The position numbers and the translations under genes are program-made. From Oscillospiraceae bacterium (GTDB lineage: Bacteria > Bacillota > Clostridia > Oscillospirales > SIG627): a DNA stretch of 64,000 bases. The notes beneath the pieces were generated by a model. The model did not search any database. It worked only from the letters and a program-made list of their open reading frames with translations, and was not told where the DNA came from. The stretch lies in assembly GCA_015064635.1 (NCBI GenBank), contig SVRV01000001.1, positions 1 to 64,000 of the forward strand, given 5' to 3'. Position 1 is the first letter of the stretch. Every line of letters starts with the position of its first letter. Of this stretch, positions 24,543 through 51,435 are shown in pieces.

Positions 24543-24576
24543 TAATGCATTATCCGAAAAAAGCAAAATTCAAAAT

Positions 24577-24697
24577 CAACGGCAAAGCCGTTGTATATCA
24601 TCAATTTCGCAGAAATTGCATATCATCATTGCGAAGCAATGTATATCATCAAGACGAATGTCTTGTATATCATCAACACGAAGTGTTGTATATCCCC
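24577..24697. repeat. Mini-hairpin array 1 (linker TATATCATCA)
   Basis: Five palindromes in a row with starts 23-25 bp apart: CAACGGC-AAA-GCCGTTG (24577-24593), CAATTTC-GCA-GAAATTG (24602-24618), CATTGC-GAA-GCAATG (24627-24641), CAAGAC-GAAT-GTCTTG (24650-24665) and CAACAC-GAA-GTGTTG (24674-24688). The linker is TATATCATCA (one copy CATATCATCA), and the array ends in TATATCCCC. The linker is constant while the stems differ in sequence but keep perfect pairing and a 3-4 nt loop. It lies between the four-helix gene's terminator and the YdeI-gene promoter, with no coding potential. The rest of 24479-24770 contains only those two elements. Confidence 0.9.
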
Positions 24698-24749
24698 TAA
24701 CTGTCACAGGTCTTAAAGTTCATACACGGGAGTTATAAAGTACTTAAAG

Positions 24750-24784
24750 AAAAATAAAGCAAGGCTTAAATTAACCTTGCTTTA
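24750..24784 (-). terminator. Terminator of the four-helix-bundle gene
   Basis: Stem TAAAGCAAGG/CCTTGCTTTA (24755-24764 with 24775-24784) and a 10-nt loop. The minus strand continues TTTTTCTTT. The right arm overlaps the last codons and stop of the gene. Confidence 0.85.
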
Positions 24785-25124
24785 ACTTGTTTTCGATTGT
24801 AATACATGAGGAGGTTAGCATTCTCCGTATTCTCCCACACATATTTCTATGCTTTTTAAAAGTATCTTCATTAATGCTACCGGCAGAAAAAATCAATTTA
24901 AGCCAACCTTCTGTCTCTGCGCATTCTTTGCGAGCAATTTCAAATTTAGACAACATATCGGCAAGACTTTGCGGATATTGAGCCTCGGAAACATTGGCAA
25001 AAATACTTGACGAAGATTTTTTAATCTGATAAACCGTGTTAGAATCAATTTTATGATTGTTACAAAGCACAAGAATATCGCAAGCCAACTTTTCGGAATA
25101 CTCAAGTAATAAATTTTTCGCCAT
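24771..25124 (-). CDS. Four-helix-bundle protein, S23/23S-rRNA intervening-sequence family
   Basis: A 117-residue all-helical protein. The family's core SSSIFANVSEAQ box (normally SSxxANIxEG-like) is near residues 37-48, followed by the FEIARKECAETEGWL helix. These small basic proteins were first noted in rRNA intervening sequences, and the retroelement accessory protein Avd has the same fold. The role of stand-alone copies is unknown; RNA or nucleic-acid binding is the usual guess. The ribosome site AGAGGTGAG precedes the ATG. The gene sits exactly between hairpin arrays 1 and 2, with its own terminator and no partner gene, which looks like a small mobile or accessory unit. No reverse transcriptase is nearby. 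Confidence 0.8.
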   Translation of the reverse strand: MAKNLLLEYSEKLACDILVLCNNHKIDSNTVYQIKKSSSSIFANVSEAQYPQSLADMLSKFEIARKECAETEGWLKLIFSAGSINEDTFKKHRNMCGRIRRMLTSSCITIENKLKQG

Positions 25125-25214
25125 AATAACTCACCTCTAAATTTTTTTATTTGTGTGACAAAGTTAGAAGCAATTTACAAATATTAGATTTTGTTTTCAT
25201 TAGCACATTTGAAT

Positions 25215-25378
25215 CACGCCGATAGGCGTGTATGGAATCCGCAACTTGTTGCGGTATGGAATTGCGACAAAGTCGCGTATGGAATCAAGCCGCAATATAT
25301 ACACCTTTGGTGATGCCATGCGCCTACGGCAATGCCATGCACGCTGACGCGTGATTCCATACCAAGCCTGCGGCTTGG
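25215..25378. repeat. Mini-hairpin array 2 (linker TATGGAAT)
   Basis: Palindromes CACGCC-GATA-GGCGTG (25215), CCGCAA-CTTG-TTGCGG (25239) and TGCGAC-AAA-GTCGCG (25263) are spaced exactly 24 bp and separated by TATGGAAT. A degenerate stretch follows (CACC-TTT-GGTG at 25302, GCC-TAC-GGC near 25323, linker ATGCCATG), then CACGC-TGAC-GCGTG (25340) and CCAAGCC-TGC-GGCTTGG (25362), separated by ATTCCATA, the reverse complement of the first linker. It has the same architecture as array 1 with a different linker. It lies between the four-helix gene and the tRNA terminator. Confidence 0.88.
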
Positions 25379-25380
25379 AT

Positions 25381-25419
25381 AAAAAATAACATCCGAAACG
25401 AATTCGGATGTTATTTTTT
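25381..25419 (-). terminator. Terminator of the tRNA-Met/tRNA-Glu transcript
   Basis: A 17-bp perfect stem (25381-25397 with 25403-25419, core ATAACATCCGAA) whose distal arm is U-rich on the minus strand, adjacent to the CCA end of tRNA-Glu. Confidence 0.9.
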
Positions 25420-25494
25420 TGGTGACCCGTACGGGAATCGAACCCATGTTACAGCCGTGAAAGGGCCGTGTCTTAACCGCTTGACCAACGGGCC
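25420..25494 (-). tRNA. tRNA-Glu (UUC)
   Basis: A 75-nt cloverleaf on the minus strand beginning GGCCCGTTGGTCAAGCGG. The anticodon loop is CTTTCAC (anticodon TTC), the T-loop GGTTCGATTCC, the acceptor end ACGGGTC and the CCA is encoded. It is 3 bp from tRNA-Met, in the same transcript. Confidence 0.96.
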
Positions 25495-25497
25495 ATA

Positions 25498-25574
25498 TGG
25501 TAGCGGAAGTCGGACTTGAACCAACGACCTGTCGGGTATGAACCGAATGCTCTAGCCAGCTGAGCTATTCCGCC
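25498..25574 (-). tRNA. tRNA-Met (CAU)
   Basis: A 77-nt cloverleaf on the minus strand beginning GGCGGAATAGCTCAGCTGG. The anticodon loop is TTCATAC (anticodon CAT), the T-loop GGTTCAAGTCC and the CCA is encoded. It looks like elongator Met; a lysidine-modified Ile tRNA cannot be wholly excluded from the anticodon alone. The pair at the base of the anticodon stem is a mismatch. Confidence 0.93.
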
Positions 25575-25609
25575 TTATCGCTTATATGGGCACTCCAAAG
25601 TGCTTATAT

Positions 25610-25638
25610 ATAATATCATAAGAAGTTCGAAATGTCAA
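25610..25638 (-). promoter_or_regulatory. Promoter of the tRNA-Met/tRNA-Glu operon
   Basis: TTGACA (25633-25638), 17 bp, TATTAT (25610-25615) on the minus strand. A short GCACT-TTGG-AGTGC hairpin lies in the precursor leader before the tRNA 5' end. Confidence 0.88.
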
Positions 25639-25695
25639 TACCTTTTTGAAAATTTTTTTGAAAAAAGAAAAGTTTATTTTTGGCGCAAAGGTGAT

Positions 25696-25726
25696 AAAAA
25701 GACGGTGTCCGAAGCACCGCCTTTTT
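25696..25726 (-). terminator. Terminator of pheST
   Basis: Stem AAAAAG.CGGTG/CACCG.CTTTTT (25696-25707 with 25715-25726, one mismatch) with a 7-nt loop, U-rich on the minus strand, 14 bp past the pheT stop. Confidence 0.88.
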
Positions 25727-25739
25727 ATCTTTATTGCTT

Positions 25740-28184
25740 TTACTTTGTTCTCATTTCTCCACCAATGTTCTTGGTAAGGAACTTGATAACGGTATTAGCG
25801 CAAGACTCAATTTCATTTGAGGTGAGAGTCTTTTCGTTTGAGCCGAGTACAAGTCTCATTGTAACAGACTTCTTACCCTCGGGCACCTGAGCACCCTTAT
25901 ACTCATCAACAAAATCAACATCCTGAAGGAAGCTGTCGCTGTTCTTTTTCTTGAGAACAGTTGCCTTGATATCCTCCCACTTTGTATCACGGTCAAAGAG
26001 CATTGACACGTCATATTCGATAGTAGGATACTCTGCAATGTGAGTAAATGTGTTTGTTCTCGATGTGAAGGGCTTGAGCGAATCTGTATCAAGTTCAAAG
26101 AGTATTACGCTGAGATTCTTGATACCGCAAGCAAGCGATGCCTTCTTTGAAAGAAGCGCCATATTACCTACCTGCTCGTCGCCAAGCTTAATATTCAACC
26201 ATACAACATCGTCTGCCCATACAGGCTTGTTGTCTCTTGCAAATGTGAGAGCTTCCATGTGTGTATAGCGTGACATACTTTCAATTACACCCTTAGCCTT
26301 GCGGAAGAGTGCGGGTACTGTATCGGAGGGAGCTGCGAAAGCACCTGCGATATTTCTGCGCTGTGAGGGAAGCTTTTCCTTTTCATCGTAAGGAGATGTA
26401 TAATTTTCATCCTTGAATATCTGCGCCTCCTCGAATATGGAGAATTCGCTGTAGAATCTCTCATTCTTCACAACAGCCTTACAAAGGTTGGGAAGAAGTG
26501 ATGAACGGATATAGCTTTCATCGGGTGAGGGAGGCGTGGAAAGCTTGAGGATTCCGTCTGTTGACTGAAGCACTGCATGAACAAAGGAATCTGTCATCCA
26601 GGGGTAAGTGAACACCTCCTGCATGCCGCAACGAATTGCAAGATATTCCTTTATCTTTCTTACAAGGTCAACATCAAGCTGATTTACGGCCCCCTCAAAG
26701 CTTGTAACAATAGGAGTGGGCTCGAAGTTCTCGTAGCCGTACATACGTGCTACTTCCTCCATGATATCCGCCTTGATGGAAACGTCACCTGTTGAACGCC
26801 ATGTAGGAACAACAATGTGCATTTTTGTATCTGTAAATGTTACATCATAGCCCATGAGGCCGAGCTTCTTTGAAATATCCTCGTTGGAGATTCTCTTACC
26901 GAGACGGCGTTCAAGCCAGCTGAGCTCAACGTCGATTTCCTTTCTCACAAGCTTATTCGGATATACGTCATTGAAGGCAAGAACCTTCATATCGGGATAA
27001 AGCTCTGCAAAAAGCTTCATTGTCATAGAAAGTGCAAGGTCACATCTTTCGGGGTCAACCGCCTTTTCGTATCTTGACGAAGCCTCTGTTCTGTTGTCAT
27101 AGCGAAGAGCTGTTCTTCTCACGCCTGTGGACTCAAAGTTTGCAACCTCGAGAATAACCTTTTCGGTCTTGGGAAGGATAGAATCCTTTGCACCGCCCAT
27201 AACGCCGGCAAGAGCAACTGCACCCTCGGAATCGGCAATAACAAGGTCATCGGATGAAAGGGCGAGCTCCTTATCGTTGAGAAGGAGAAGCTTTTCACCG
27301 TCATTTGCACGTCTTACCGTAATATGGTCGGAAATATTGTCCGCATCAAAAACGTGAGTGGGCTGACCAAGTGCCATCATAACATAGTTTGTAACGTCAA
27401 CAAGAGCATTTATAGGTCTCTGACCTACTCTCCACAAACGGCTCTGCATTTCAAAGGGAGCGGGCTTTACAAAGAGTCCCTCCATCTTTACACCCATGTA
27501 TCTGGGGCAACGCTCTGTATCAACGATTTCAAGAGGAAGTGTTTCAACATTTCCTGCATCAAAAGGTGCAAACTCTGCAAGAGGAAGGTCGTAAAGAGCC
27601 GATATCTCACGTGCTATACCGTAGTGACCCCAAAGGTCGGGACGGTTTGTCATTGATTTATTGTCTATTTCAAGAATAATATCGTCAAGTCCAAAAGCCT
27701 TTGCAACGGGAGTGCCTGCGGGAATCTTAAAGGATGTTACATCCATTATTTCATGCTCTTCAGCCGCGGGGAAAAGGTCAGCAAGACCTACCTCGACAGA
27801 AGCGCATATCATACCAAAGCTTGCAACACCGCGAAGCTTTGTGTTCTTTATTTCAACGGGCTCACCTTCACCGTGCCAACGTACCATGGCACCGGGACAG
27901 GCAACAACAACGCTCATTCCCGCCTCAAGGTTTGAGCCGCCGCAAACGATGTCATGAATCTCACCGTCGGCAATATCAACCTTACAAACACGAAGCTTGT
28001 CTGCGTTGGGATGGGGCTGTACTTCCTTAATTTCACCTACAACGATACCGTCGAAACGACGTGCAAGCTCCTCGGCACCTTCTACCTCAACAGTGGACAT
28101 AGTAAGGTCAAAGGCAAGCTGCTTCAGGTCCATATCGTCGGGTAGCTTTACATAGTCCTTTATCCAATTCAAAGATAATTTCAT
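25740..28184 (-). CDS. pheT: Phenylalanine-tRNA ligase beta subunit
   Basis: The 814-residue beta subunit of the (alpha-beta)2 enzyme that charges tRNA-Phe. Domains in order: N-terminal LSLNWIKDYVKLP, the tRNA-binding OB fold (GEIKEVQPHPNADKLRVCKVD, about 50-150), the B3/B4 editing region (about 210-390), B5 (about 400-475), a degenerate catalytic core, and the C-terminal FDX-ACB anticodon-binding domain with the YPTIEYDVSMLFDRDTKWEDI stretch near 715. Length is normal. It starts 15 bp after pheS and shares its T-box leader. Nothing is unusual. Confidence 0.98.
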   Translation of the reverse strand: MKLSLNWIKDYVKLPDDMDLKQLAFDLTMSTVEVEGAEELARRFDGIVVGEIKEVQPHPNADKLRVCKVDIADGEIHDIVCGGSNLEAGMSVVVACPGAMVRWHGEGEPVEIKNTKLRGVASFGMICASVEVGLADLFPAAEEHEIMDVTSFKIPAGTPVAKAFGLDDIILEIDNKSMTNRPDLWGHYGIAREISALYDLPLAEFAPFDAGNVETLPLEIVDTERCPRYMGVKMEGLFVKPAPFEMQSRLWRVGQRPINALVDVTNYVMMALGQPTHVFDADNISDHITVRRANDGEKLLLLNDKELALSSDDLVIADSEGAVALAGVMGGAKDSILPKTEKVILEVANFESTGVRRTALRYDNRTEASSRYEKAVDPERCDLALSMTMKLFAELYPDMKVLAFNDVYPNKLVRKEIDVELSWLERRLGKRISNEDISKKLGLMGYDVTFTDTKMHIVVPTWRSTGDVSIKADIMEEVARMYGYENFEPTPIVTSFEGAVNQLDVDLVRKIKEYLAIRCGMQEVFTYPWMTDSFVHAVLQSTDGILKLSTPPSPDESYIRSSLLPNLCKAVVKNERFYSEFSIFEEAQIFKDENYTSPYDEKEKLPSQRRNIAGAFAAPSDTVPALFRKAKGVIESMSRYTHMEALTFARDNKPVWADDVVWLNIKLGDEQVGNMALLSKKASLACGIKNLSVILFELDTDSLKPFTSRTNTFTHIAEYPTIEYDVSMLFDRDTKWEDIKATVLKKKNSDSFLQDVDFVDEYKGAQVPEGKKSVTMRLVLGSNEKTLTSNEIESCANTVIKFLTKNIGGEMRTK

Positions 28185-28199
28185 TTCTCTATTCCCTCC

Positions 28200-29237
28200 T
28201 TAATGGAACTGTTCCAAAAATCTGAGATCTGTGCCGTGGAAGAGACGAACATCGTCTACTCCGTAGCGCATCATAACAAGACGGTCAAGACCGATATTTA
28301 CATAAAAGCCTGTGTACTCGTCGGGGTCAAGTCCCGCTGCACGAAGTACATTGGGGTGAGGTGTGCCGCCGGGCATTATCTCAATCCAGCCAACATGCTT
28401 ACAAACACTGCATCCCTTACCTCCGCAAACAAGACATCCCATATCAATTTCAAAGCCGGGCTCAACGAAGGGGAAGAATCCCGCTCTCATACGAACAGGC
28501 ACGTCTGTACCGAACACCTTTGAGAGGATGCTCTTTATCATTACCTTACCTGCTGTGAAGGTGAAGTCCTTATCAACGATAAGCGCCTCATACTGGAAGA
28601 AAGCTCTTTCGTGGCGGGCATCTGTGGTCTCATTTCTGTAAACGTGTCCGGGATATACAAATCTGTAAGGGGGCTTGTGAGTCTGCATATAACGAACAGA
28701 GCCACCTGTAAGGTGAGGTCTGAGACAAAGCTTGTCCTCCGGCTTACCCGTATCGTGTCCCTCTATCCAATAGGTATCCATGCTCTCACGTGCGGGATGG
28801 TTGGGAGGGAAATTGAGGTTATCAAAAGCGTAGTACTCTGTGGTGATATCGTCCTCGGAGTAAATCTCAAAGCCCATTGAACGGAAGGCATCGTCAAGGT
28901 CATAGCGCATCTGTGTAATGGGATGAAGTCCTCCTGCAGGAGGAAGAGTTCCGGGAAGTGTATAGTCAAAATCAGCGGGAATCTCAGAAGCCTTGAGACG
29001 AAGCTCCTCACGGCGTGCTTCTATTGTCTCTGTGAGCTTATTCTTTACCTCATTTACTGCCTTGCCCATTTCGGGTCGAAGTGACGGATCAATTTTGGGA
29101 AGCTCCTTCAATATTTCGGTAAGCGAACCCTGTTTACCAAGGAAAGCTACCTTAACTTCCTGAAGCTGAGCTTCTGTCTTCGCTTCAAGAATTTTAGCTT
29201 CTGCATCCGTTTGTATCTGCATCAACTTTTCTTTCAT
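28200..29237 (-). CDS. pheS: Phenylalanine-tRNA ligase alpha subunit
   Basis: Catalytic alpha subunit, 345 residues, the usual length. A coiled-coil N-terminal arm (1-85) is followed by the class II core with HPITQMRYDLDDAFRSMGF (motif 1), VYRNETTDARHERAFFQYEALIVD (motif 2, about 205-228) and GLDRLVMMRYGVDDVR (motif 3, about 315). The Phe pocket residue region reads FPFVEPGFEIDMGCLVCGGKGCSVC and includes four cysteines in a CxxC-x(n)-CxxC pattern that may bind zinc. It is first in the pheST operon behind a T-box riboswitch. The ATG at 29237 follows an AAAGGAATGATAT-type leader. Confidence 0.98.
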   Translation of the reverse strand: MKEKLMQIQTDAEAKILEAKTEAQLQEVKVAFLGKQGSLTEILKELPKIDPSLRPEMGKAVNEVKNKLTETIEARREELRLKASEIPADFDYTLPGTLPPAGGLHPITQMRYDLDDAFRSMGFEIYSEDDITTEYYAFDNLNFPPNHPARESMDTYWIEGHDTGKPEDKLCLRPHLTGGSVRYMQTHKPPYRFVYPGHVYRNETTDARHERAFFQYEALIVDKDFTFTAGKVMIKSILSKVFGTDVPVRMRAGFFPFVEPGFEIDMGCLVCGGKGCSVCKHVGWIEIMPGGTPHPNVLRAAGLDPDEYTGFYVNIGLDRLVMMRYGVDDVRLFHGTDLRFLEQFH

Positions 29238-29286
29238 TTTATATCATTCCTTTCTAATATTATCTGAAGTTTCTGCCTTTTGCTAA

Positions 29287-29504
29287 AAAAATCCGCCCCT
29301 GCACATACAGAGGCGGATGACCGCGTTACCACTCAAATTTATAACTCTCGGGTCCTATAACGGAGACTGCCGTGTACAGCTACTGTAAATTTCACCGTAC
29401 CCACTCCCGAGTGAAGTGCTGTTACCGAAAGGACGGGTATTTCCACCATCTACCCTCTCTTTTGACCTTTTTGTCGGTAAAGCTATCTCGTTCACAGTGT
29501 TTAC
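29287..29504 (-). promoter_or_regulatory. T-box leader of pheST with its terminator
   Basis: The minus strand between the promoter and pheS contains the T-box antiterminator sequence GAGTGGTAACGCGG (29320-29335 region), followed by a terminator ATCCGCC...GGCGGAT (29291-29318) and a run of seven T. Upstream lie GGTGGAAATACC-type stem I elements and several hairpins. T-boxes sense uncharged tRNA; in front of pheST that is tRNA-Phe. A TTC triplet occurs in an unpaired-looking stretch (CACTTCACTC, near 29415), but I could not fold stem I well enough to prove it is the specifier. Confidence 0.88.
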
Positions 29505-29510
29505 CGAGAT

Positions 29511-29539
29511 ATTTTACCACACAAAGGCTTACTTGTCAA
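29511..29539 (-). promoter_or_regulatory. Promoter of pheST, embedded in the end of the upstream gene
   Basis: TTGACA (29534-29539), 17 bp, TAAAAT (29511-29516) on the minus strand. The -35 hexamer is formed by the last codons of the acyl-CoA synthetase gene (CTT GAC AAG TAA). Confidence 0.88.
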
Positions 29540-31229
29540 GAGTTTTGTTTCCGGGATCCTGTCTTCTTATTTTGTTAGTGGTTGTCTTTATAAATTCATT
29601 CTTTCTTACAACGACCTTTGAAATCTGCTTATACACGGGAAGTGCCGCACAAGCATCCTTAATATCAGTCTTGAGTCTTGCCTGAATGTCAACACCATCG
29701 CCAAGCTCCTCAACTGCCTTATTGTCAAGGAATACTTCGGCGCAAAGTCCGACTTCCTGACCGTTTTCTTCGATTCCATACACCATTACCTCCTTGATAT
29801 AGGGTACGGAAGCAATGTAGTTTTCGATTTCTTCGGGATAAATGTTCTTACCGTTTTTAAGAACAATAAGATTCTTTTTACGGCCTGTAATAAGAAGCTG
29901 ACCCTTCTTGTTCATTGCGCCGTAGTCACCTGTATGGAACCAGCCGTCGGGCTCAAGAACCTTCTTTGTCTCCTCTTCATTCTTATAGTAACCAAGCATT
30001 ACAGTGTCACCCTTAACACAGATTTCACCGTTACCGTCCTCGTTTACATCATCAAATTTAACTTCAATGCAAGGAAGAATAACACCAACGGTTGCGGGAT
30101 CGTTAAAGTCCTTCTGGTTAACACTTACAAGAGGCGAACATTCTGTAATACCATAGCCGTTAAGAACGGTAATTCCTATGTCATCAAAGAATTTTGCAAC
30201 CTCGGCTCTGAGCGGTGCTCCTCCGCATACTATCTGACGAAGCTCTCCGCCGAAAGCGTTGTGAATTGCCTTGAAGAGCTTACGTCTCATGTCAATGCCT
30301 ATTTTTCTGAGTACGTTTGACGCCTTGATTGCCGCCTTTATCATACCTGCCTTGCCCTGAGCTTCAATATTCTCCCATACCTTCTTGTAGAATACATCAA
30401 GGAAAGCGGGAACAAGACAAATGTGCTCGGGCTTGTAAAGAAGCATATTCTTGAGAGTTGCCGCACGTGAATCATTAATGCAAATTGTTACGTTCTCTCT
30501 GAGTTCAACAAGGATACCTGGAATTGCCTCATATGTGTGATGGTAAGGAAGCACTGAAAGAGTCTTGGCATAATAGTGAGCTACCTGAAGTCCGTGCTTG
30601 ATACATGCAACGATATTATGTTCGGAAAGCATAACACCCTTTGAAAGTCCTGTGGTTCCCGAAGTGAATGAAATAAGCTTCAGAGCATATTCGTCACGAG
30701 TCTCCTCAAGGAACTGAGTTGAACCCTCTTCAAGAAGCTTTGCACCTTCTTCAACAAGCTTATCAAAGGAAAGCCATCTTCCGTCATCCTCTTCTCTGTC
30801 AAAGCAGATGAAATACTTAATGTTCGGATATTCGTTCTCTGATTCCATAAAACGTGTTTCGTGCTTCTTTGAGCAAAAACATACTGTTACATCACCCTCT
30901 TCGAGAATGTGTTCAACATCCTTCAAAGGAAGCTCGGTGTCAATGGGAACAAAAACGCCCTTCGACTGAAGAACAGTCAGAAAAGTAAGAAGCCAGCTGT
31001 AGCTGTTCTCACCGATACATGCAAGGTGTCCGTCAGTAAGTCCTCTGTGTGCAAGTGCTGTACCGAGCGCTTTTGTAGCATCATAAAATTCCTGATAAGT
31101 AACTGTGCACTGTTCACCCTTCTTCTTAAAGCAAAACGCTGCTCTGTCGGGTGCCTTTGCAGCAGATGTCTGAATAAGCTCTTTAATAGAGCTGAAATCG
31201 TTTAGCGGTCTATACTTATACTTTGCCAT
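29529..31229 (-). CDS. Long-chain acyl-CoA synthetase-like AMP-binding protein
   Basis: A 566-residue adenylate-forming enzyme. Motifs: P-loop-like SFTSGTTGLSKGVMLSEHNI near 188, YGITECSPLVSVN near 350 and GWFHTGDYGAMNKKGQLLITGRKKNLIVLKNGKNIYPEEIE near 430-470, which carries the conserved Asp and hinge. The C-terminal lysine in VVRKNEFIKTTTNKIRR is positioned like the catalytic Lys. It activates a fatty or other carboxylic acid to acyl-AMP/CoA; the substrate is not deducible. There is no membrane segment. It is a single gene with its own promoter, ending inside the pheST promoter with no terminator between, so some read-through into the T-box is expected. Confidence 0.9.
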   Translation of the reverse strand: MAKYKYRPLNDFSSIKELIQTSAAKAPDRAAFCFKKKGEQCTVTYQEFYDATKALGTALAHRGLTDGHLACIGENSYSWLLTFLTVLQSKGVFVPIDTELPLKDVEHILEEGDVTVCFCSKKHETRFMESENEYPNIKYFICFDREEDDGRWLSFDKLVEEGAKLLEEGSTQFLEETRDEYALKLISFTSGTTGLSKGVMLSEHNIVACIKHGLQVAHYYAKTLSVLPYHHTYEAIPGILVELRENVTICINDSRAATLKNMLLYKPEHICLVPAFLDVFYKKVWENIEAQGKAGMIKAAIKASNVLRKIGIDMRRKLFKAIHNAFGGELRQIVCGGAPLRAEVAKFFDDIGITVLNGYGITECSPLVSVNQKDFNDPATVGVILPCIEVKFDDVNEDGNGEICVKGDTVMLGYYKNEEETKKVLEPDGWFHTGDYGAMNKKGQLLITGRKKNLIVLKNGKNIYPEEIENYIASVPYIKEVMVYGIEENGQEVGLCAEVFLDNKAVEELGDGVDIQARLKTDIKDACAALPVYKQISKVVVRKNEFIKTTTNKIRRQDPGNKTLDK

Positions 31230-31275
31230 AATTACACCTCTGTTTTATAAATTACTTTTGCTTGTTTTCAATACT

Positions 31276-31304
31276 ATGTTACCATATTTTTATTGTTATG
31301 TCAA
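31276..31304 (-). promoter_or_regulatory. Promoter of the acyl-CoA synthetase-like gene
   Basis: TTGACA (31299-31304), 17 bp, TAACAT (31276-31281) on the minus strand. Confidence 0.8.
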
Positions 31305-31340
31305 GAACTAAATAATAATTTATAAAAGTTTTTAATACTA

Positions 31341-31369
31341 TTGACTCCAAATTCAAATTATGATATACT
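31341..31369 (+). promoter_or_regulatory. Promoter of the DUF1836 gene
   Basis: TTGACT (31341-31346), 17 bp, TATACT (31364-31369) on the plus strand. It occupies the 5' part of a longer open frame and so supports the downstream start codon. Confidence 0.82.
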
Positions 31370-31400
31370 ATATTCGAAAAATAATTTAAAGGATTTTAAT

Positions 31401-31913
31401 ATGAAAACAAGAGAAGAATATTTAAACTATCACTGCCCGAGATGGGAAGAGTTCCCCGATGTCGAACTATACGCAGACCAAGTGTTGTCGGTCATACAGC
31501 GCCACGTTTCTTTTTTCGAAGATACGGTTGAAATGTCCTTCACATCAAATATGATAAACAATTATGTGAAGCAGAAGATTGTAAAACCTCCCATAAATAA
31601 AAAATATGACAGAGTACACCTTTCCTACTTCACCGTCGTATGTCTTTTGAAAAGCTTGTTTTCTATTTCCGAATTATGCAACGGAATAGAATTTATGATG
31701 AAAACAAGCACAGTAAAAGATCTTTACGGCATATTCTGTGAAGAACTGGAAAAGGCAATAAAAACAGTCTTTGCTCCCGACAAATTCCCAAAAGCACCTG
31801 ACAAGGATTGTACCAAAGAGCTTGAAATAATACGCGCTGCCTGCTTTGCCTTTGCAAGTCTTGTATATACAAAGCATGTAATAAAAGAAGCAACAGAAGA
31901 TAATAAAGAATAA
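31401..31913 (+). CDS. DUF1836 domain-containing protein
   Basis: A 170-residue protein with the DUF1836 core: the MSFTSNMINNYVKQKIVKPPINKKYDRVHL stretch near residues 45-75, then YFTVVCLLKSLFSISELCNGIEFMM. The region resembles a MerR-like winged helix in which a YVKxKxVxxPxxKKY strand-turn contacts DNA, so a transcription regulator is likely, but no target is known. The ATG at 31401 follows AAAGGATTTTAAT; the frame extends upstream to 31341 only through the promoter. It is monocistronic, followed by about 430 bp of hairpin-rich untranslated DNA ending in a plus-strand terminator at 32346. Confidence 0.8.
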   Translation: MKTREEYLNYHCPRWEEFPDVELYADQVLSVIQRHVSFFEDTVEMSFTSNMINNYVKQKIVKPPINKKYDRVHLSYFTVVCLLKSLFSISELCNGIEFMMKTSTVKDLYGIFCEELEKAIKTVFAPDKFPKAPDKDCTKELEIIRAACFAFASLVYTKHVIKEATEDNKE

Positions 31914-31982
31914 ATTAAAATGGGTTGTAGCAATATTTGCAATATACACAAATTACGGACCGTCGGGGACAAGCGTTATGCA

Positions 31983-32076
31983 ATGAAATCCATCCTTCGG
32001 ATGGGTGAAATCCGCCTATGGCGGATGAAATTCAGCAAAGCTGAATGAAATGTTGCCCCAAACGGGCAACGTTATG
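31983..32076. repeat. Mini-hairpin array 3a (linker ATGAAAT)
   Basis: Four palindromes spaced 20-21 bp: CCATCC-TTC-GGATGG (31990), TCCGCC-TAT-GGCGGA (32011), TTCAGC-AAA-GCTGAA (32031) and GTTGCCC-CAAAC-GGGCAAC (32052). They are separated by ATGAAAT, with one GTGAAAT. The array is framed by GTTATGCA before and GTTATGGA after. The arms vary and the linker is fixed, as in arrays 1 and 2. It lies in the untranslated region behind the DUF1836 gene. Confidence 0.9.
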
Positions 32077-32183
32077 GACAATTTCGGCATAAAAATGCCA
32101 AAATTTCCAATTTGATTGTATGCGGAACAGTTACGAACCGTTCCCTACGAAAATCGTGATTTTGCTACCATATTTTAATGGAA

Positions 32184-32308
32184 GAAAACGAAGTTTTCAA
32201 CCAAAACTATACGGCAATGCCGTATAACTTCATTTTTGGCAAAGCCAAATACTTCACTCTTCACGCACCTTTAGGTGCACTTCACTTCATAACAGCCTCT
32301 GCTGTTAT
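32184..32308. repeat. Mini-hairpin array 3b (linker ACTTCAYT)
   Basis: Palindromes GAAAAC-GAA-GTTTTC (32184), TATACGGC-AAT-GCCGTATA (32208), TTTGGC-AAA-GCCAAA (32235), GCACC-TTTA-GGTGC (32265) and ATAACAGC-CTCT-GCTGTTAT (32289). The later ones are joined by ACTTCATT/ACTTCACT. Between 32076 and 32184 less regular inverted repeats occur (for example GGCAT-AAAA-ATGCC). There is no gene anywhere in 31914-32476. Confidence 0.82.
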
Positions 32309-49752: not shown

Positions 49753-49831
49753 TGTAACACAACTGTAACATTAGACAATGTTTTGTTACATACTTTGTTG
49801 CTTTTGTTACAAAGCATGTCATTTTGTTACA
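49753..49831. promoter_or_regulatory. Conserved 18-mer and phased TGTTACA heptamers
   Basis: TGTAACACAACTGTAACA at 49753-49770 is identical to 45966-45983 and holds the same position relative to the -35. Three further heptamers in the opposite orientation (TGTTACA at 49784, 49805 and 49825) follow. Successive starts are 11, 20, 21 and 20 bp apart, close to whole helical turns. The cluster lies between divergent genes and could bind an oligomeric regulator of paralogue C and perhaps of the capA operon. Confidence 0.65.
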
Positions 49832-49876
49832 ACAAATGAAATATTTTCCTTTTTTAAAAAGACTTACTTCGATTCC

Positions 49877-49905
49877 TTGACAATTCCGTCAACTTATTAT
49901 ATCAT
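49877..49905 (+). promoter_or_regulatory. Promoter of the capA-HAD-dehydrogenase operon
   Basis: TTGACA (49877-49882), 17 bp, TATCAT (49900-49905) on the plus strand. Confidence 0.72.
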
Positions 49906-49938
49906 ATATATAACATAAATGAAAGGATTGATATAAAA

Positions 49939-51435
49939 ATGGTTCAAAGAAGACGAAGAAGACATATGAGACCGGGCGCCGTAGCCGTTATAGGTATTTT
50001 GATAATAGCATTACTTTTCGGTGCCCTTTACATTTTCGCACCCGGCAAGGATGACGGAGAAAAAACTCCGATAAAAGAAGAAACAAATCTCCCTGACGAA
50101 AATAAAAATAAAACCGAAGCTGAGCCTCCCGTTCAGCAGGAAAATCCCGGCGAAGCAGTGACTCCGGAAGCTCCCGAAGAGCCAACCATTCCTACCGAGC
50201 CCGAAAACCCCGCTGAACCCGAAAAGCCTGTTGAGCCTGAGACACCCACCGAGCCTGAAACTCCAACACAGCCTACAACTCCAACACAGCCTACAACTCC
50301 AACACAGCCTACAACTCCAACACAGCCTACAACTCCCGAAAAGCCAAAGCCCTCGGGCAACGAAACCAGACTCTCCTTTGTGGCCTTCGGTGACAACCTC
50401 ATACACAGTGCGATTATCGAGGACGGAGAAACTCTTGCAAAGAACAGCGGAAGCGATAAGAAATACTATTTCGAGCCTATGTATGAAAACTTCAAGGGAA
50501 TCATCTCAGGTGCAGACATAGCATTTATAAATCAGGAAACACCCATTGCGGGACCCGACTTCCCTGCGGCGGGATATCCTAACTTCAACACCCCCGTTGA
50601 AATGGGCGACTGCCTTGTAAATCTTGGCTTTGATGTAATCAACACAGCTACAAACCATATGCTCGACTGCCGTGGAGCAGGACTTATCCACCATGTTGAC
50701 TATTGGGAAAGTCAGAAGAGCAAGGGCGTAATCCAGGTAGGTAGCTATAAGAATAAGGAAGATTATAATAATATCCGAGTATACGAAAAGGATGGCGTAA
50801 AGATAGCTTTCCTCGCTTACACCTACGGTACAAACGGAATGACCGCCGGTAGCTCATATCCCGACATATACGTTCCCCTTCCCACAGAAAGCGAAATGAC
50901 AAGACAGGTTAAGGAAGCAAAAGAGCTTGCCGACCTTGTTTTCGTATCAATGCACTGGGGCGACGAGGACTCCTTCACCCCCAACGCAACACAGCGCAGC
51001 TGGGCACAGGTGCTTGTAGATGCGGGAGCCGACGTAATAATCGGTACTCACCCCCACGTTGTTCAGGAAGTCAAGTGGAAGGAAAATGCCGAGGGACACA
51101 AGACACTTATCGTTTATTCACTTGGTAACTTCATTTCAACAATGTACTATCCTTGGAATATGTTCGGCGGATATCTCAGCCTTGAAATTGTAAAGGACGG
51201 AGATAATGCATGGATAGAATCTCCCCTCTTCAACCCCACAATGTGTCATTACAGTATGCAAAGACGTTCTCTCAAGCTGTACACACTGGACAATTATTCT
51301 CAAGAGCTCTATGACACACACGGCACAACACTCAAGAGCTCAGCCTATAGCTACAACAAAATCATCGCAAAAATCAAATCGGTAATATCGGAAGAATTCC
51401 TTCCTAAATACTATATAGAGTATAACGCAAACTAA
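49939..51435 (+). CDS. CapA-family metallophosphoesterase-like protein, membrane anchored
   Basis: A 498-residue protein. A basic N terminus (MVQRRRRRHMRPG) and one transmembrane helix (about 13-34) are followed by a Pro/Glu/Thr linker to about residue 140, then the CapA fold: FVAFGDNLIHSAI near 147, FINQETPIAG near 195, INTATNHMLDCRGAG near 235, MHWGDED near 335 and VIIGTHPHVVQEV near 365. These match the metal-binding D-N-H-H set of poly-gamma-glutamate capsule protein CapA. The linker contains TPTQPT repeated from a near-perfect 18-bp DNA repeat (50263-50334), prone to length change. There are no capB/capC neighbours, so capsule synthesis is not implied. It leads an operon with two metabolic enzymes. 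Confidence 0.85.
   Translation: MVQRRRRRHMRPGAVAVIGILIIALLFGALYIFAPGKDDGEKTPIKEETNLPDENKNKTEAEPPVQQENPGEAVTPEAPEEPTIPTEPENPAEPEKPVEPETPTEPETPTQPTTPTQPTTPTQPTTPTQPTTPEKPKPSGNETRLSFVAFGDNLIHSAIIEDGETLAKNSGSDKKYYFEPMYENFKGIISGADIAFINQETPIAGPDFPAAGYPNFNTPVEMGDCLVNLGFDVINTATNHMLDCRGAGLIHHVDYWESQKSKGVIQVGSYKNKEDYNNIRVYEKDGVKIAFLAYTYGTNGMTAGSSYPDIYVPLPTESEMTRQVKEAKELADLVFVSMHWGDEDSFTPNATQRSWAQVLVDAGADVIIGTHPHVVQEVKWKENAEGHKTLIVYSLGNFISTMYYPWNMFGGYLSLEIVKDGDNAWIESPLFNPTMCHYSMQRRSLKLYTLDNYSQELYDTHGTTLKSSAYSYNKIIAKIKSVISEEFLPKYYIEYNAN

Follow-up and report, generated by a model that had tools for sequence, protein, structure and literature searches.

Four hairpin arrays and an IVP gene in a clostridial genome

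The window analyzed here, the first 64,000 nucleotides of contig SVRV01000001.1 of an Oscillospiraceae bacterium, contains four arrays of short hairpins joined by constant linkers (words), and a gene of the IVP family lies between the first two. Since the 1990s IVP proteins have been recognized as passengers of the intervening sequences (IVSs) in 23S rRNA, and we know of no role assigned to them. The window's one full copy of what we describe as an element starts behind a tRNA-Glu gene and runs through a terminator and a hairpin array (array 2), which forms its leader, to the IVP gene. The features are listed below; "GNA strand" denotes the strand on which the loops read GNA.

24572-24731, plus strand: array 1, a copy without IVP gene; word TATATCAT, GNA-loop hairpins, tail TGTCACAGGNCTTAAAGTTCATACACGGGA.
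24771-25124, minus strand: IVP gene, 117 aa, PF05635 / TIGR02436.
25215-25378, minus strand: array 2; word TATGGAAT with hairpins, then an inverted half of ATTCCATA with hairpins.
25285-25294, minus strand: distal X', GCGGCTTGA, a potential alternative partner of the 5' arm of hairpin X, in place of X's own 3' arm.
25362-25378, minus strand: hairpin X, CCAAGCC-gca-GGCTTGG, the first after the terminator.
25383-25417, minus strand: terminator hairpin, AAAATAACATCCGAA-loop-TTCGGATGTTATTTT, abutting the tRNA.
25420-25574, minus strand: tRNA-Met (25498-25574) and tRNA-Glu (25420-25494), the element lying directly behind the tRNA-Glu CCA.
31973-32113, plus strand: array 3; word GTGAAAT (ATTTCAC on the GNA strand), match to Gut-1, no IVP gene.
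32184-32308 (approximate), minus strand: array 4; design as array 3, word RTGAAGT (ACTTCAY on the GNA strand).

A mechanical hairpin scan (perfect stems of at least 5, loops of 3-6 and gaps of at most 25 nucleotides) counted runs of 5, 6, 6 and 9 hairpins in the window, whereas ten first-order Markov shuffles of it gave no run of five or more and two of four. The run of nine is array 4 merged with chance hairpins on its flanks, and one run of six (49767-49913) has no constant linker and looks like an AT-rich chance occurrence. The four arrays and their linkers had been noticed earlier in a reading made from the letters alone (the sequence-only reading), and all are present. Array 1 has five hairpins at 24577-24688 with linker TATATCAT, array 3, at 31990-32113, has the linker ATGAAAT, and array 2 carries TATGGAAT both forward and inverted, as two inverted halves around a long-range repeat. 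That reading described perfect stems of 5-8 bp; certain units of array 2 pair imperfectly or have stems of 4 bp only. The claim that the arrays flank accessory genes only fails at array 2, which lies directly 3' of the tRNA-Met/tRNA-Glu operon and beside a gene read as pheT. The tRNA, terminator and IVP context, the pairing of X with X', the inverted halves and the IVP-less nature of arrays 1, 3 and 4 had been overlooked. Arrays 1, 2 and 4 indeed fit no described class, whereas array 3 belongs to one, the Rfam family Gut-1.

Arrays 1, 3 and 4 look like IVP-less relatives or derivatives of the IVP-bearing element, and their words are found again beside other IVP genes of the same genome. Arrays 3 and 4 share one intergenic region in opposite orientations. 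Array 1 has a second copy on another contig (G000:C17), 99% identical over the array and immediately 3' of an AraC-type gene. Its tail was considered as the end of a wider repeat family, and was set aside, with two copies only and none in relatives.

Anatomy of the full element

Full copies follow one order: the 3' CCA of a tRNA or transfer-messenger RNA (tmRNA) gene, a terminator hairpin, X, word-hairpin units, X', inverted word-hairpin units and the IVP gene, which in many loci is preceded by promoter-like sequence on inspection by eye. In 93% of 96 loci the start of the array has a complement of at least 9 nt in the array's middle part, as 67 distinct sequences, compared with 2.5% of shuffles; part of these complements are the inverted words themselves. 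The terminator is probably carried by the element, and its ACATCCGAA stem also occurs behind another tRNA-Glu gene in the related genome G005.

In the window's genome arrays are found in two settings: some, such as arrays 3 and 4, are dispersed between genes, and others, such as array 2, immediately follow a tRNA and its terminator. A given array has a single word, and words differ among arrays; those seen include ATTTCAC, ATTTCAT, ACTTCAC, ATATCAC, ATATCAT, ACATCAC, ACATCAT, GCTTCAT, ATATAAC, ATTTAGC, AATTCAT and TATGGAAT, along with others.

Several loci of this kind show further features. At L106 (G000:C1:88600-89130), between a tRNA-Pro and an IVP gene, the complete array is tandemly triplicated with a period of 202 bp, with a partial second copy of a terminator arm at two junctions. 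Another dispersed repeat, GTGCACCTTGCAC...TGCATTG with TTTGGGT-loop-ACCCAAA, adjoins several dispersed Gut-1 arrays (L035 and L042, on G000:C5 and C1). The arrays at L036 (8236-8398) and L037 (3997-4186) are near-identical except that one whole hairpin has been replaced, GTTTTGAC/GTCAAAAC standing for CCGTC/GACGG, which suggests that units are swapped as modules.

Hairpin arrays accompany IVP genes, tRNA genes and Gut-1

The window's genome (2.47 Mb in 57 contigs, ~90% complete) has eight PF05635 genes, six of them beside hairpin arrays, and 98 relatives, mostly of the same order, gave more than 150 PF05635 matches. Arrays were sampled through searches and the stretches around matches rather than counted exhaustively, and the order-level sample and Pfam-ranked choice of loci favour high-scoring IVPs. 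Across 97 loci, the 300 bp upstream of the IVP gene contained 4.28 hairpins on average; per 300 bp the figure was 1.98 downstream, 1.26 in the stretch 1-1.3 kb upstream and 1.09 in shuffles. A tRNA or tmRNA gene on the same strand ended within 750 bp upstream in 47 of these loci (16 kinds), and on the opposite strand in none of the 97. An Rfam search of 40 IVP loci that lacked an upstream tRNA call found tmRNA in L201 and L165, a few tRNAs elsewhere, and no other RNA class and no rRNA.

We repeated the analysis on an independent set, obtained by scanning named GTDB genomes for close relatives of the window's IVP (72 loci, 62 analyzed). Nearly all come from metagenome-assembled genomes (MAGs) that carry the label Clostridia or Oscillospiraceae and derive mainly from the ruminant gut. 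A same-strand tRNA gene, of twelve kinds in all, lay 189-471 bp upstream in 55 of the 62.

Array 3 matches the Gut-1 model (RF01706) over its positions 1-77 at 31981-32056, with 72.3 bits against a gathering cut-off of 50. Array 4 scores 23.4 bits, under the cut-off, and arrays 1 and 2 have no Rfam match. The genome as a whole yields 35 Gut-1 matches at E<=0.001, some as inverted pairs and some nearly identical to one another. When the best Gut-1 match was taken from each relative (29 loci), 15 started 23-39 nt behind a tRNA or tmRNA gene. Furthermore, presence of Gut-1 and of IVP agrees in 84 of the 98 genomes (49 with both, 35 with neither; odds ratio 35, p 8e-13). Gut-1 was described as a candidate RNA found in the "human gut only" and as probably a non-coding RNA (Weinberg 2010, PMC2864571).

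The word follows the IVP protein

We compared words and proteins over 65 loci. Word distance correlates with IVP protein distance (Mantel r 0.56), whereas the maximum of 5000 permutations was 0.26. Within the window's subfamily, IVPs 77-88% identical to the window's mostly use TATGGAAT, and those 63-73% identical mostly use TATGTAAT. Likewise, among the first 100 listed of 162 matches in the window's genome, the words of AYWTCAY type that have hairpins between them are almost exclusively ones also found beside an IVP gene of that genome.

A subset of IVP genes is preceded by tandem words without regular hairpins. Plasmid-borne IVP genes follow tandem 7-8 nt words, GATTAGT repeats in Bernardetia and GTGAAAG/GCGGAAAG-like repeats in Treponema saccharophilum, and similar tandem words precede IVP genes in Planktothrix, Dolichospermum and Euhalothece (plasmids of Bacteroidota, Spirochaetota and Cyanobacteriota: L310 1336-1500; L311 1074-1401; L315; L316). 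Such words may explain some cyanobacterial short tandem repeats. In some Nostoc operons, in Gloeocapsa and in Chlorohelix, IVP has no preceding gap or repeat, and the Nostoc plasmid IVPs were dropped as repeat-linked candidates, the three examined lying in operons without repeats.

Stems keep pairing, and loops keep to one strand

The sequence-only reading had proposed that arm sequence is free while pairing is kept. In pairwise comparisons of related arrays, in which the pairs are not independent, compensatory double changes numbered 196 against 39 expected under independent change of the arms, in agreement with that proposal. Loops behave differently from stems. On the AYWTCAY strand, triloops read GNA in 64 cases and TNC in 2, and tetraloops GNNA in 35 and TNNC in 4. 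This orientation was picked after the data had been seen, and we took the count again for the window's word in the 62 independent loci. There, loops on the ATTCCATA strand read TNC 79 times and GNA never; hence GNA always lies on the TATGGAAT strand.

Mismatches on the AYWTCAY strand comprise 6 G.T, 1 A.C and 22 G.A/A.G, the last mostly as tandem pairs (for example CT-GA-GGC-aaa-GCC-GA-AG), and the tandem G.A pattern is that of folded single strands. The asymmetry of G.U and A.C changes was tried as a test of RNA versus DNA and was not decisive (80 of each, with a weak G.T lean among mismatches); we therefore relied on the polarity of the loop relative to the word. Because the two halves of an array are inverted, the constrained strand switches within it, and one transcript spanning both halves would show the wrong strand in one of them. 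This points to a unit that is read locally, most simply as folded DNA, a route through RNA being possible. Loop and word polarity is our main evidence for local reading, from which we infer DNA as the probable folded strand.

The element occupies different sites in related genomes

Comparison with related genomes reveals a patchy distribution. At the tRNA-Glu locus beside the gene read as pheT, the window's genome (G000) has its TATGGAAT element, the congener G004 has a GATGAAAT element, and G001 has no array. In G003 the matching tRNA pair lies on another contig, which ends soon after it, with the terminator and without an array. Behind another tRNA-Glu, G005 carries an element of the window type. 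At the intergenic site that holds arrays 3 and 4 in the window, G001 likewise lacks an array, its flanking genes looking conserved, and G004 has a different one. Furthermore, near-identical IVPs stand behind tRNA-Pro, -Ser, -Gly and -Arg genes across different genera and families. The terminators of such near-identical-IVP pairs are 77% identical on average, and in one pair they agree throughout 42 nt; terminators behind one tRNA type but with unrelated IVPs reach 58%. This indicates that the terminator largely travels with the element. The same element is found at different sites and empty sites are found in relatives, as befits a mobile element, and it is widespread in gut Clostridia and apparently mobile.

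The IVP protein resembles S23 proteins and Avd

The window's IVP lies well above the curated cut-offs of both families (PF05635, 64.3 bits against 33.8; TIGR02436, 67.8 against 24). Its dN/dS is 0.01-0.08 among close relatives where computable, values that point to purifying selection. The confident structure model (pLDDT 96.7) has 2rld, 2gsc and 4dwl as its best structural matches. S23/IVP structures rank first, followed by Avd of the Bordetella phage retroelement, both on its own and within the retroelement complex. The predicted fold is a four-helix bundle of the S23/Avd type, and PF05635 and Avd have already been held to be homologous (PMC10053308).

IVP genes were also seen inside defence-like operons (L314, L317, L318 and L319): HsdS-IVP-HsdR in Monoglobus, helicase-IVP-N6 methylase in Chlorohelix, DUF1156-IVP-HEPN in Gloeocapsa, and a place beside cas1 in Pseudanabaena.

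Other features of the window

Besides Gut-1 and tRNAs, an Rfam search of the region at relaxed thresholds gave only a T-box below the cut-off and one snoRNA match due to chance. The T-box leader (29306-29504, minus strand) scores 89.4 bits against a cut-off of 93 and lies upstream of a gene read as pheS (28200-29237, minus strand). A perfect tandem repeat with period 18 and 4.3 copies of AACTCCAACACAGCCTAC occupies 50259-50336, within an open reading frame of 498 aa (49939-51435).

Interpretation and alternatives

The arrays probably act in cis as parts of a small element that moves horizontally and has a single gene, that of the four-helix-bundle IVP, and we propose that an IVP oligomer binds word and hairpin. 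The functional unit would be a word of 7-8 nt plus a short hairpin whose GN(N)A loop lies on one defined strand. Within an array the word does not change, and it goes with the IVP subfamily; the stem needs only to pair, and the loop is constrained. The oligomer may bind this unit as folded single-stranded or cruciform DNA, much as the DNA hairpin beside the targets of diversity-generating retroelements (DGRs) appears to be recognized. Binding could place, protect, mobilize or maintain the element in cis, and possibly act in trans on IVP-less arrays with the same word. Arms probably drift by compensatory change or template switching, together with replacement of whole units. A recognition track for a nucleic-acid-binding protein was among the options offered by the sequence-only reading, and it is the one we favour because the repeated word tracks the linked IVP; the binding itself is put forward here as a proposal.

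A wider version can be offered tentatively. It describes a class of mobile DNA whose sole protein, IVP, reads a subfamily-specific word and a strand-polar, GNA-loop hairpin with free stem, places elements behind tRNA and tmRNA genes, and acts in trans on IVP-less arrays. The same pairing of word and protein, without hairpins, would account for the tandem heptamer-like repeats before IVP genes in Bacteroidota, Spirochaetota and Cyanobacteriota.

Several observations weigh against the favoured explanation. Single changes to G.U and to A.C, counted on the tRNA-to-IVP strand, are equal in number (80 versus 80), and standing mismatches lean towards G.T (17 versus 8 A.C). About one third of IVP leaders have no hairpin array, and several have tandem words only. 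Of the 98 genomes, seven contain Gut-1 but yielded no IVP and seven show the reverse, several of these assemblies being incomplete; the genomes are mostly MAGs. Neither a target-site duplication nor an excised form was found, in a sample that lacks a strain pair with exact empty and filled sites. Linked inheritance without recognition could also yield the correlation of word and protein, yet the arms within the same few hundred bases are not fixed.

Rfam files Gut-1 as a gene and small RNA, and with array 3 scoring as a full member the arrays could be genes for non-coding RNAs that form tandem hairpins and serve some cellular function. Covarying arms and the slight excess of G.T over A.C mismatches would suit such genes. 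Loop polarity and word orientation flip between the halves, however, so no one transcript shows the constrained strand over its whole length; many arrays are situated past the terminator of a tRNA, copies are numerous, dispersed and in both orientations, and presence is patchy even among congeners. We therefore regard RNA genes as unlikely. The RNA-processing arrays suggested by the sequence-only reading are weakened likewise, loop polarity going with the word rather than with the transcript. Replication template switching, which could keep short inverted repeats perfect while slippage expands them, requires no function at all. Quasipalindrome correction copies a change from one arm to the other, the two types of single change are equally frequent on the plus strand, and a 202 bp unit is triplicated in tandem at G000:C1:88.6-89.1 kb. 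Such upkeep may well be how the arms change; as a full account it is improbable, leaving the strand-polar GNA loops (79:0), the fixed words tied to IVP and the placement behind tRNA genes unexplained.

Retromobility of the group IIC intron or DGR type, in which an RNA copy would be reverse transcribed and inserted beside terminator hairpins with IVP acting like Avd, draws on the Avd-like predicted fold and on insertion beside terminators, which recalls IIC introns (a comparison made for DGRs in PMC3240598). We give it little credence, as the arrays have inverted halves instead of intron structure and the window's genome has no RVT_1 reverse transcriptase. No more plausible is a system like REPIN/RAYT, in which an IS200/IS605-type Y1 transposase would move palindromic repeats with IVP as a mere passenger: a word beside a one-strand hairpin does recall REP, with its conserved tetranucleotide and hairpin, and the dispersed IVP-less copies have words in common with IVP-linked ones, but the arms vary freely, the word tracks IVP, and no Y1_Tnp (RAYT) gene was found in the window's ~90% complete genome. 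The least credible proposal, and a very improbable one, is a guide-RNA array akin to CRISPR or TIGR with the variable arms as guides. A constant element does alternate with variable sequence, and a figure legend in a large CRISPR-association survey names IVP (PMC10910872). The variable parts pair with themselves within each unit, and for that reason we set this proposal aside; they are also only 5-8 nt long and change in a compensatory manner, and no nuclease partner was seen, no search of the genome for cas genes having been made.

Relation to known systems

The arrays form a coherent class distinct from CRISPR and from classical REP, as the sequence-only reading had held. A CRISPR has a constant repeat and unique, non-palindromic spacers, whereas the variable parts here are palindromes. 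REP, BIME and REPIN sequences with RAYT are similar in having dispersed palindromic units beside a short conserved word and a presumed cognate protein gene, but REP arms are conserved and RAYT is a Y1 transposase, while the arms here vary between units and loci. Group IIC introns also insert next to terminator-like stem-loops; the region has no Rfam intron match.

Closer parallels exist. A DGR target requires an adjacent DNA hairpin or cruciform in which stem structure matters and sequence is free, with a GRNA loop on the sense strand (PMC3240598). Our arrays have free paired stems and loops polar to one strand, but these loops are mostly GNA triloops, with GNNA tetraloops second; Avd has the IVP fold (PMC10053308). 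DGRs differ in possessing a reverse transcriptase, a template and a variable repeat, whereas here there are many-hairpin arrays with a constant word. The IVSs of Coxiella and Leptospira 23S rRNA that carry an IVP/S23p reading frame (PMC4990558) are likewise small, selfish-looking elements with inverted repeats, patchy distribution and horizontal transfer. They lie inside 23S rRNA helices and are excised by RNase III, whereas the present elements stand behind tRNA, tmRNA or protein genes and have word-hairpin arrays. Insertion into a 23S rRNA helix was not encountered, the context being tRNA in the window and no 23S rRNA context appearing in the loci scanned. We place the elements among the IVS-type elements that encode IVP, and the chance that they form a separate kind is fair. 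The Gut-1 consensus, hairpins joined by GUGAAAU, corresponds to array 3 over its full length; the model differs in covering one word and one half only, and is filed as a free-standing RNA from metagenomes.

Gut-1, IVP and the IVS are each known, and the open literature that we searched holds no link of IVP to repeats or to tRNA genes. Within that literature, what appears to be new is their connection, the placement behind tRNA and tmRNA genes, the correlation of word and protein, and the strand polarity. As an RNA family Gut-1 has remained an orphan since 2010, and to our knowledge short tandem-word repeats have no explanation in several phyla. Co-location and co-variation tie together Gut-1, the IVP family and this class of short repeats, each of unassigned function. 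If each IVP binds its own word-hairpin, a large protein family would gain a function and Gut-1 would be reclassified, and hairpins selected for structure and free in sequence would serve a new kind of mobile element, one directed at tRNA 3' ends, as recognition sites.

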